From Acidobacteria bacterium 28-9 (GTDB taxonomy: Bacteria; Acidobacteriota; Blastocatellia; Pyrinomonadales; Pyrinomonadaceae), in NCBI GenBank assembly GCA_002050355.1, contig MWYY01000056.1, positions 1 to 40,234 of the forward strand: 40,234 nucleotides of DNA, in the 5' to 3' direction. Position numbers and translations under genes: made by a program. Positions 30,332 to 35,660 of this stretch are shown one piece after another; position 1 is the stretch's first letter; every line of letters starts with the position of its first letter. Under the pieces are notes generated by a model. The model was given only the letters and a program-made list of their open reading frames with translations. It made no database searches and was not told the DNA's origin.

Positions 30332-32203
30332 TTACATAACTAAATTATGAATGATATTGACGATAAAATAAGAAATGCCGGCAATCAGAGCTGCCATCGG
30401 AATCGTTAAAATCCACGCCCAGACAATTCTGCCCGCGACGCCCCATTTGACCGCCGAAAGCCGTCGGGCTGAACCGACGCCGACGATTGCGCCCGTTATG
30501 GTATGAGTCGTCGAAACCGGAATTCCCGCAAAAGTGGCTCCGAAAAGTGTCAATGCACCGGCAGTTTCTGCACAGAATCCGCCGACCGGCTGGAGTTTCG
30601 AAATTTTTGAACCCATCGTTTTGACAATTCGCCACCCGCCCGACAGCGTTCCCAAACCGATAGCAGCATGTGCCGCAAGGACAACCCAGAGAGGAATATC
30701 AGGCAGCTTTCCGGCGGGCGTCATTTGCAGGAATCCGCCCGAAACAAGAACAATAGTGATGATTCCCATCGTTTTCTGCGCGTCGTTGCCGCCGTGTCCG
30801 AGCGAAAAGGCGGCGGCAGAAAAAAGCTGTCCGATGCGAAATCCCTTATCGACTTTGGAAATCGTCGTGCGGCGAAAAATCCAGTAAACCGCCACCATTA
30901 GCCCAAAACCCAAAGTTACTCCGATGAGCGGCGAAAGCACAATAAAGGTCAGCGTTTTTATCCAACCGGCGGCTATTAAAACCGACGACATTCCATTAAA
31001 TCCGAAATGTTCGATATAAGAGACGAGCGCCGCGCCCGCGTAGCCGCCGACAAGCGCGTGCGAACTCGAAGTCGGAAGCCCCAGATACCAGGTTATTAAA
31101 TTCCAAATAACCGCGCCCAGAAGACCACCGAGCAAAACGTAAAGCCGGTCGTCCGCCGGGATTGCCGCGATGTTGACCATATCGCCGCCGATTGTTTTAG
31201 CGACGGCAGTGCCGCACGCCCAGACAATTCTGCCCGCGACGCCCCATTTGACCGCCGAAAGCCGTCGGGCTGAACCGACGCCGACGATTGCGCCCGTTAT
31301 GGTATGAGTCGTCGAAACCGGAATTCCCGCAAAAGTGGCTCCGAAAAGTGTCAATGCACCGGCAGTTTCTGCACAGAATCCGCCGACCGGCTGGAGTTTC
31401 GAAATTTTTGAACCCATCGTTTTGACAATTCGCCACCCGCCCGACAGCGTTCCCAAACCGATAGCAGCATGTGCCGCAAGGACAACCCAGAGAGGAATAT
31501 CAGGCAGCTTTCCGGCGGGCGTCATTTGCAGGAATCCGCCCGAAACAAGAACAATAGTGATGATTCCCATCGTTTTCTGCGCGTCGTTGCCGCCGTGTCC
31601 GAGCGAAAAGGCGGCGGCAGAAAAAAGCTGTCCGATGCGAAATCCCTTATCGACTTTGGAAATCGTCGTGCGGCGAAAAATCCAGTAAACCGCCACCATT
31701 AGCCCAAAACCCAAAGTTACTCCGATGAGCGGCGAAAGCACAATAAAGGTCAGCGTTTTTATCCAACCGGCGGCTATTAAAACCGACGACATTCCATTAA
31801 ATCCGAAATGTTCGATATAAGAGACGAGCGCCGCGCCCGCGTAGCCGCCGACAAGCGCGTGCGAACTCGAAGTCGGAAGCCCCAGATACCAGGTTATTAA
31901 ATTCCAAATAACCGCGCCCAGAAGACCACCGAGCAAAACGTAAAGCCGGTCGTCCGCCGGGATTGCCGCGATGTTGACCATATCGCCGCCGATTGTTTTA
32001 GCGACGGCAGTGCCGAAGATGACAAAGGCAATAAAATTAAAAAACGCCGCCCACGCCACCGCGACGCTAGGCGACAAAACTCTGGTTGAAACGATTGTGG
32101 CGATTGAATTGGCGGCATCGTGAAAACCATTTACATAGTCAAAAACCAGAGCTATGAAAATGATAAAAACGACCAAACCGAATGCAACTGATTGACCTTC
32201 CAT
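30332..32203 (-). CDS. Pit family inorganic phosphate transporter with internal tandem duplication
   Basis: 623 residues; family members are usually about 330-500. The N-terminal helix bundle has the first signature region NGFHDAANSIATIVSTR (about 26-42). The C-terminal half has the second, GHGGNDAQKTMGII. The stretch from GTAVAK to RIVWA is present twice, 267 residues each, without any difference, and the second copy lacks the N-terminal signature. Removing one copy gives 356 residues, a normal Pit protein that cotransports phosphate with a cation. The DUF47 gene upstream (same strand, 45-bp gap) is the usual PhoU-like partner. Function of the duplicated form is uncertain. Confidence 0.9.
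   Translation of the reverse strand: MEGQSVAFGLVVFIIFIALVFDYVNGFHDAANSIATIVSTRVLSPSVAVAWAAFFNFIAFVIFGTAVAKTIGGDMVNIAAIPADDRLYVLLGGLLGAVIWNLITWYLGLPTSSSHALVGGYAGAALVSYIEHFGFNGMSSVLIAAGWIKTLTFIVLSPLIGVTLGFGLMVAVYWIFRRTTISKVDKGFRIGQLFSAAAFSLGHGGNDAQKTMGIITIVLVSGGFLQMTPAGKLPDIPLWVVLAAHAAIGLGTLSGGWRIVKTMGSKISKLQPVGGFCAETAGALTLFGATFAGIPVSTTHTITGAIVGVGSARRLSAVKWGVAGRIVWACGTAVAKTIGGDMVNIAAIPADDRLYVLLGGLLGAVIWNLITWYLGLPTSSSHALVGGYAGAALVSYIEHFGFNGMSSVLIAAGWIKTLTFIVLSPLIGVTLGFGLMVAVYWIFRRTTISKVDKGFRIGQLFSAAAFSLGHGGNDAQKTMGIITIVLVSGGFLQMTPAGKLPDIPLWVVLAAHAAIGLGTLSGGWRIVKTMGSKISKLQPVGGFCAETAGALTLFGATFAGIPVSTTHTITGAIVGVGSARRLSAVKWGVAGRIVWAWILTIPMAALIAGISYFIVNIIHNLVM
30414..31214. repeat. 801-bp perfect tandem repeat, unit 1
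   Basis: Unit 1 of a head-to-tail duplication. It begins at CACGCCCAGAC (30414) and ends at CAGTGCCG (31214). The next base begins unit 2. Comparison along the window shows the two units identical at every position I checked, with an offset of 801 throughout. The length is divisible by three, so the frame is kept. Confidence 0.95.
31215..32015. repeat. 801-bp perfect tandem repeat, unit 2
   Basis: Identical to 30414-31214. The bases just outside differ (30413 is C against G at 31214; 32016 is A against C at 31215), so there is no shared microhomology at the junction. Adds 267 codons to the phosphate transporter gene. Confidence 0.95.
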
Positions 32204-34611: not shown

Positions 34612-35070
34612 CTACGCGTCAAACGCTTTTAAAACTTCGTCGGCGTGTTCTTCAATATTCACTTTGTCAAAAACCTTTTTAATTTTTCCGCTCTCGTCAA
34701 TCAAAAAAGTTTTTCGCAAAACACCCTTGTAAATTTTCCCGTCGTATTCTTTGTCGCCGTAACTGCCGTAAGCATCCGCAATCCGGTGGTCGGTGTCGGC
34801 GAGTAGCGTAAACGGCAAATTATATTTGGAGATAAACTTTTGGTGCGATTTTTCGTCGTCCATCGAAACGCCCAAAACCTTTATATTCTTCTGTTTGTAA
34901 ACGTCGTTTGCATCACGAAACGAACTTGCTTCCAGCGTTCAGCCCGTCGTATCGTCTTTCGGATAAAAATACAAAACAACTTTCTGCCCGCGAAAATCCG
35001 AAAGTTTTACGTCGTTTCCATTTTGGTCTTTGACCGTAAAATCAAGCGCGGTATCACCTTGTTTAATCAT
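34612..35070 (-). CDS. bcp: Bcp-type peroxiredoxin, probable selenoprotein (TGA at the catalytic position)
   Basis: From ATG 35070 (ribosome site AGGAG 7 bases before) a 152-residue frame runs to TAG 34612, with a single in-frame TGA at 34939-34941. It is codon 44, exactly the peroxidatic cysteine of PxxxTxxC (here PKDDTTG then TGA). The flanks are typical Bcp: DFTVKDQNGNDVKLSDFRGQ, VVLYFYPKDD, and later VLGVSMDD, YNLPFTLLADTD and GVLRKTFLID with Arg119. Position 49, where E. coli Bcp has its resolving Cys, is Ser. The protein has no cysteine. A SECIS-like hairpin follows the TGA. Alternative: a nonsense mutation or TGC/TGA read error. An ordinary caller would start at 34875 and lose the catalytic half. 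Confidence 0.75.
34904..34923 (-). promoter_or_regulatory. SECIS-like hairpin downstream of the in-frame TGA
   Basis: On the transcript TCGTTT and AAACGA pair over 6 bp around the 8-base loop CGTGATGC. The stem begins 15 bases after the TGA, so 21 bases separate the TGA from the loop. Bacterial SECIS elements are short hairpins in the coding region with an early G in the loop (here second position) at about this distance. Supportive, not proof. Confidence 0.5.
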
Positions 35071-35126
35071 AATTTTCTCCTAAGTTTTAATTTTGGTAGA
35101 ATTGTATCACGACGAACGGAAAAAAT

Positions 35127-35660
35127 ATGAAAATGCTGACCGAAACAAAAGCGTTGGGCGGACTCGAAAAACTCAAAACCAGTTTTCAAAATTTCATAAA
35201 AACAAATTACGAATACCGAGCGCAAAATTGCCAAACCTGTCCGACAAAAGGTGCATGCTGTCTTGACGCGCACTTCGTCAATGTTCACATCACACGACTC
35301 GAAGCGGTTGCCATACGCAACACGCTGAAAAATTTAAGCGAAGAAAAACAACGCGAAATCTACAAACGCGCCGCAGAAACCGTCGAGAAATATAATTTGA
35401 AAAGCGATGACGACACATTTGAAAAAACTTTCGCCTGTCCGCTTTTTGAAAAAAGCCTCGGCTGCCTCATCCACGAAAACGCCAAACCTTCAGCTTGTAT
35501 TTCACACGCTTGTTACGAGAACAGAGAAGATTTACCGCCCGAACGATTTCAAGAACAAATCGAAAACACAATTGAAAAATTGAATAAAAGAACTTACGGC
35601 AACGCTTTGACGTGGCTTCCGCTCCCCGTATGGCTCGATTCGATAAATACGTCTAAATGA
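35127..35660 (+). CDS. YkgJ family cysteine-cluster protein
   Basis: 177 residues. The N-terminal cluster CQTCPTKGACCLDAH (residues about 32-46) and later single cysteines (CPLF, CLIH, CISHACYEN) match the CxxCxxCxC-type family that probably binds iron or zinc. No function is established. It is divergent from the peroxiredoxin gene with only 56 bases between the two starts, so both may share a regulatory region, perhaps redox-related, which is inference. Stop codon TGA (35658-35660) is part of the palindromic repeat that follows. Confidence 0.82.
   Translation: MKMLTETKALGGLEKLKTSFQNFIKTNYEYRAQNCQTCPTKGACCLDAHFVNVHITRLEAVAIRNTLKNLSEEKQREIYKRAAETVEKYNLKSDDDTFEKTFACPLFEKSLGCLIHENAKPSACISHACYENREDLPPERFQEQIENTIEKLNKRTYGNALTWLPLPVWLDSINTSK

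Follow-up and report, generated by a model that had tools for sequence, protein, structure and literature searches.

The literature has covered selenocysteine (Sec)-containing peroxiredoxins of the TxxU type (COG1225) since 2005, which means that the protein described here does not found a new family. In the available parts of the relevant surveys, 43 such genes are reported from the Sargasso Sea (PMC1088965), and 12 Sec-peroxiredoxins with five Cys-to-Sec events from bacterial genomes (PMC1794560). The same excerpt of the second survey gives three peroxiredoxins for Anaeromyxobacter dehalogenans, and for Acidobacteria four selenoproteins in three families, which are unnamed there (PMC1794560); three selenoproteins are given for one Acidobacteriota genome in the accessible text of a further paper (PMC12013277). 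A 2026 review lists this family, the words Acidobacter, Pyrinomonad and BCP being absent from it (PMC13188914). Sec in place of the peroxidatic Cys, called a known theme among peroxiredoxins by the first-pass annotation of the present locus, is indeed documented in the available text of both surveys of TxxU COG1225 proteins (PMC1088965; PMC1794560).

The window, i.e., the whole stretch of DNA that was analyzed, comprises 40,234 nucleotides of contig MWYY01000056.1 from Acidobacteria bacterium 28-9 (Pyrinomonadaceae, hereafter the family). It harbors an intact gene for a Bcp/PrxQ-type peroxiredoxin in which UGA44 very probably encodes Sec, selenium then being the sole catalytic centre of a protein devoid of Cys. 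The features concerned are the following:

34612 to 35070, minus strand: Bcp/PrxQ-type peroxiredoxin gene of 152 codons, TGA predicted to be read through as selenocysteine, no Cys codon (NF006960, 167.8 bits).

34939 to 34941, minus strand: TGA in frame (codon 44), occupying the peroxidatic site of the PxxxTxxU motif; the same codon is TGA in seven other genomes of the family.

34924 to 34926, minus strand: codon 49, AGT (Ser), which is TGT (resolving Cys) in the other seven TGA orthologues of the family.

34903 to 34925, minus strand: predicted bacterial SECIS stem-loop, in which a closing G-C pair and a bulged U lead into a stem of 6 bp capped by the 8-nt loop CGUGAUGC, whose second base is G.

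35075 to 35080, minus strand: Shine-Dalgarno-like sequence GGAGAA ahead of the ATG.

35127 to 35660, plus strand: divergent gene for a Cys-rich protein, with TGA as its own stop codon.

The minus-strand frame from 35070 to 34612 consists of 152 codons and a stop, with a single in-frame TGA (34941-34939) in the context YPKDDTTG*TLEASSFRD, and shows neither a frameshift nor a second internal stop. PF00578 covers residues 5-132 of the protein (E 8.6e-42), the Bcp/PrxQ model NF006960 is passed over residues 2-149 (167.8 bits for a cut-off of 140), and Bcp structures rank among the best PDB matches. Pro37, Thr41 and Arg119, which we take to be the catalytic residues of the Bcp/PrxQ family, are all found. 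The active-site motif given for Bcp/PrxQ in the available text of PMC5302317, P(K/A/R)(D/A)xTxG and then the peroxidatic residue, is present as PKDDTTG with the TGA next. The protein resembles the thioredoxin-dependent thiol peroxidase Bcp/PrxQ (NF006960/PRK09437; PF00578) over nearly its full length, in the PrxQ motif and in the Pro, Thr and Arg residues, but differs in that its peroxidatic residue is UGA-encoded and the resolving Cys at +5 is replaced by Ser. With PrxU of Eubacterium acidaminophilum it shares the likeness of a Sec-containing peroxiredoxin, yet it scores below the cut-off of that model (NF040737, 58.6 vs. 270 bits), as it does for the thiol peroxidase Prx-SUH model (NF045827, 36.3 vs. 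298 bits). The first-pass annotation had described a complete peroxiredoxin frame with a lone TGA at codon 44, had considered that a chance nonsense mutation would rarely fall on this peroxidatic codon, and had predicted that an ordinary gene caller would yield only the 87-residue C-terminal part. This description stood when the frame was re-read: the mechanical list of open reading frames holds only an 87-aa piece at 34612-34875, and codon 44 is TGA in at least eight of the 119 genomes of the family, among the matches listed, which argues against chance. What had been overlooked is the loss of the resolving Cys (codon 49, Ser) and the Thr at codon 42, where most relatives have Pro.

Matches to the window Bcp were obtained in 111 of the 119 family genomes, and its best relatives bear names that point to Pyrinomonadaceae (Acidobacteriota). 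The TGA-type genes belong to two genera, the window's own (G000, G011, G012, and G014) and another one (G057, G060, G074, and G075). The DNA at codon 44 was inspected in those loci that were fetched, the listed rows of the other genomes being flagged as stop-free or, in a few cases, as having a stop elsewhere; among 43 orthologues this codon is TGA in 8, TGC in 30, and TGT in 5, a count that excludes the distant paralogues L137 and L145 as well as loci without codon 44. The Cys/TGA alternation that the first-pass annotation had proposed to look for is thus found in the family. Two TGA-flagged rows (G112 and G094) were rejected as Sec-type, having TGC at codon 44 and TGA elsewhere. L133, on contig C7 of G112, offers a useful contrast: in this Cys-type bcp the in-frame stop falls on codon 18, away from the active site, and has the look of a common lesion or an error. 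When 162 genomes of the class were searched, no TGA-flagged bcp outside the family appeared among the matches listed. In addition, a database protein, P0001, is 93-94% identical to the window protein and has W at codon 44; the W is consistent with TGA having been translated under code 4, and P0001 is counted below as Sec-type by inference from it. A second search, on the Myxococcota side, covered 195 genomes (the phylum of a Myxococcaceae genome), 151 of them with a match; all 25 TGA-flagged rows among the matches listed were fetched together with 40 chosen others. One flagged row, G273, was dropped as Sec-type, its codon 44 being TGC, and joins the 40 to make 41 Cys-type rows. There remain at least 24 TGA-type bcp genes in 23 genomes (G174 and within G195-G223). 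One of these genomes, G221, has two of them (L152 and L175), one of which lies on a very long branch, has Arg at position 49 and misses the common stem.

The divergent gene at 35127-35660 adjoins bcp at all eight TGA loci and at several Cys-type loci, its hits amounting to 23 of the 126 loci searched, which are of unequal length. Since it stands beside bcp genes of both types, these loci look orthologous, and TGA and Cys appear to alternate in place. Its product is presumably a small YkgJ-like protein; NCBIfam offered no more than a weak hit to a transposase model, scoring far below the cut-off. A functional link with bcp is possible. Elsewhere in the window, the gene at 30332-32203, which we assume to encode a PiT-type phosphate transporter, holds two exact 300-nt copies in direct repeat (at 30414 and 31215, 801-bp spacing) and so reads as a frame of 623 aa in which a segment is doubled. 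The doubling may stem from recent duplication in tandem or from faulty assembly.

With regard to decoding, the window genome (3.65 Mb, 117 contigs, 86.6% complete) was searched for the four genes that the first-pass annotation had put forward as a check, and all are present: selA (543.9 bits), selB (404 bits), tRNA-Sec (72.9 bits; anticodon UCA, TCA by ARAGORN), and selD (354 bits). Two selD genes score above the cut-off of the selD protein family, each with one in-frame TGA and both reading SCAG*VAK around it. This pair (L017 on contig C29 and L018 on contig C97) is ~84% identical, as derived from a mean column identity of 92%, and the gene order nearby, judged by eye, is partly alike and partly different; the second copy is either a paralogue or a contig of a related organism in the bin. 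The presence of Sec machinery discriminates little because it is near-universal in the family, selA being found at E 1e-30 in 106 and tRNA-Sec at E 1e-8 in 105 of the 119 genomes. Among the eight genomes with a TGA-type bcp, selA is found in seven and tRNA-Sec in six, the misses being assemblies 71% and 79% complete.

In bacteria the SECIS element is described, in the available text of PMC1088965, as a hairpin that lies immediately after the UGA and whose small apical loop bears a guanosine. All eight family TGA genes are able to form the closing pair, the bulged U, the 6-bp stem and the 8-nt loop with G second; 56 of 56 cells are paired, and seven cells in two pairs are changed on both sides in a compensatory manner. 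Neither the percentage paired nor the covariation score was reached by any of 500 shuffles, whereas two of the five stem measures were ordinary, pairs changed on both sides being as high in 335 and further pair types in 499 of 500 shuffles. Slid versions of the stem have 23-57% of their cells paired, and RNAalifold recovers this hairpin, placing the bulge one base away. At 37 other loci, which include the distant paralogues L137 and L145, a mean of 3 of the 6 stem pairs can form and four loci form all six; 12 Cys-type rows drawn from the better-pairing loci have 88% of cells paired. Codons 49, 50, and 53 of the TGA genes show restricted third bases (Fisher p 0.004, 0.042, and 0.0014; 8 TGA genes vs. 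35, 31, and 35 sequences), these three codons having been picked after viewing the alignment. On the Myxococcota side, a 6-bp stem that starts as far behind the UGA as in the family genes is found in 23 of 24 TGA-type genes vs. 1 of the 41 others, with the loop CGKGAY in the same proportion (23/24); both this stem and that of the family were chosen by inspection prior to counting. Folded alone, the 55-nt stretch of the window is outdone by 197 of 200 shuffles (z +2.03) and shows no convincing hairpin, the 23-nt hairpin attains only -3.9 kcal/mol, and an Rfam search matched no family. Given this poor single-sequence fold, the structural case for the stem comes from comparison between genes, by which the hairpin expected behind the UGA of a bacterial selenoprotein gene is predicted here.

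The window bcp frame contains no Cys codon whatsoever, and the second Cys at +5 from the peroxidatic residue that characterizes the atypical 2-Cys type of Bcp/PrxQ is absent from the protein. The usual resolving position is codon 49, which is TGT in seven of the eight family TGA genes, the window gene (AGT, Ser) being the exception. P0001 likewise has Ser at 49 and no Cys, which makes an error in a single assembly an unlikely source of the loss. Similar losses are seen among the Myxococcota-side TGA-type Bcp proteins, with which the window protein shares the TGA codon and the stem at the same distance (23/24), even though it is only about 38-46% identical to them: position 49 is Cys in 16, Ser in 5, Leu in 2, and Arg in 1 of the 24 genes, and seven of the eight proteins without Cys49 hold no Cys at all. 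In contrast, Cys49 is kept in 37 of the 41 Cys-type rows from that side (Fisher p 0.024), and the other four have one to three other Cys. Taken over both sides, proteins with no other Cys make up 9 of 33 Sec-type (window protein and P0001 included; 7 of the 31 others) vs. 0 of 74 Cys-type proteins, with Cys counted over a core of ~152 residues and the Cys-type rows partly hand-chosen; the corresponding p of 1e-5 assumes independent rows, yet the rows are related. The idea that loss of Cys49 is tied to the change of Pro42 was abandoned, since TSG is found also in Sec-type and Cys-type proteins that keep Cys49.

Trees were built from 51 and 107 rows, both without the distant paralogues L137 and L145, the short L140 and L147, which has no N-terminus; L140 and L147 were kept in the stem and third-base counts, and L133 was omitted from the 51-row tree because of its codon-18 stop and included in the 107-row tree. 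That Sec arose only once in the window's family was rejected on the 51-row tree (AU p 0.0027). On the 107-row tree, several forks of which are weak, the starred branches force at least four changes between Sec and Cys, and the Myxococcota-side TGA-type Bcp proteins form a separate Sec group. Three Cys-type rows from that side (L177, L185, and L189) are nested in a Sec clade and all retain Cys49, likely representing a return from Sec to Cys. Complete loss of Cys accounts for four changes on this tree, all on Sec branches; as these represent 0.20-0.24 of the tree length, the chance of all four falling on them is ~0.002-0.003 by a crude estimate.

These losses bear on the explanation that the protein is a selenoprotein in which the loss of Cys49 was neutral, another protein supplying the thiol in the conventional 2-Cys manner. 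Among the family bcp orthologues compared, Cys49 is missing only from the window gene and P0001, and the resolving-Cys site is said to vary among Bcp proteins in the available text of PMC5302317, both of which would suit a neutral loss. With no Cys in the chain, however, a homodimer would be unable to supply one, and total loss of Cys has occurred about four times on the tree, always on a Sec branch, so that we regard this explanation as unlikely while still giving it some weight.

Far less credible is the view that the TGA is a nonsense mutation that ends translation and that bcp is a dying pseudogene. It would account for the 87-aa fragment in the list of open reading frames, a missing resolving Cys could look like decay, and no near Cys-type copy of bcp was found in the window genome (the best remaining match being 42% over 101 residues), hence no backup upon loss. 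Yet the same codon is TGA in at least eight genomes of two genera, the frame has neither a frameshift nor another stop, and the third bases behind the TGA are restricted. Moreover, the gene is under purifying selection on both flanks of the TGA and is not decaying: against three same-genus TGA orthologues, dN is 0.09-0.16 and dS 0.56-1.8, before and after the TGA, several other dS values in the same comparison being saturated, and dN/dS is about 0.1 on both sides in the close pair L103/L105. The first-pass annotation had seen a threat to its reading in close relatives that all have Cys combined with further decay of this strain; TGA-bearing relatives and selection on both halves were found instead. 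Decoding of UGA44 as Trp or another residue, through a changed code or read-through, is equally hard to credit. The W at codon 44 of P0001 points that way, but W is what a code-4 gene call writes for TGA, and the divergent neighbour terminates on TGA. The genome moreover holds tRNA-Sec, selA, selB, and UGA-bearing selD, and the other family orthologues have Cys at this codon (30 TGC and 5 TGT), never Trp. Least probable of all is a sequencing or assembly error in which TGC or TGT was misread as TGA, since, in spite of an assembly 86.6% complete in 117 contigs and of the exact 300-nt repeat (801-bp spacing) nearby, which is maybe an assembly fault, TGA is found at codon 44 in eight assemblies, the independent database protein P0001 has W there, and TGA-type genes share features rare in Cys-type genes.

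The reading of the in-frame TGA at the peroxidatic codon as Sec is thus supported by sequence comparison, and a catalytic scheme can be proposed for the predicted selenoprotein. SelB and Sec-tRNA would decode UGA44 using the stem at 34903-34925, and Sec44, held by Pro37, Thr41, and Arg119, would attack the peroxide to give a selenenic acid. In relatives with Cys49, an intramolecular Se-S bond would come next. In the window protein, where Cys49 is replaced by Ser, an external thiol may act as the resolver, attacking the Se-OH before a second thiol frees the enzyme. The protein would overall be a one-Sec peroxidase reset by an outside thiol, either thioredoxin-like or bacillithiol, the latter being a candidate reductant because the window genome encodes BshC (bshC, 466 bits). 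This mode of action is likely, and it would resemble that of 1-Cys peroxiredoxins and selenium-dependent glutathione peroxidase, which have one chalcogen residue, a sulfenic or selenenic acid and an external-thiol reset, according to the available text of PMC8533274, and which belong to different families.

In comparison with the TxxU COG1225 Sec-peroxiredoxins, as far as these are described in the available text of the surveys, Sec at the peroxidatic position and PxxxTxxU are common to both, while the window protein has no Cys. Loss of the resolving Cys in Sec-peroxiredoxins is not mentioned in the available parts of the literature searched, and no account of a Sec-peroxiredoxin in Pyrinomonadaceae or Blastocatellia was found in that literature, which mostly excludes subscription papers; the single hit for Pyrinomonadaceae and selenoproteins concerns, by its abstract, a mangrove metagenome. 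The predicted selenoprotein is thus of a known kind, in an apparently undescribed lineage, the Cys-free form being new. Such genes are easily missed or misread, since gene callers can reduce them to a C-terminal stub or put W in place of the catalytic residue.

Knowledge of how Sec affects the rest of the active site lags behind that of Sec at the peroxidatic site itself. In the present sample, the switch from Cys to Sec is accompanied by recurrent loss of the last Cys, on Sec branches only. We lean, by a modest degree, towards the view that Sec at the peroxidatic site frees Bcp from the need for a resolving Cys, and that Cys-free, one-Sec peroxidases recycled by an external thiol have thereby arisen repeatedly, in Acidobacteriota, the window gene included, and on some three occasions in Myxococcota. 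The benefit that selenium brings to an enzyme becomes directly testable in this system, a U44/S49 protein being predicted to be active with external thiols and a C44/S49 protein to stall or become over-oxidised.
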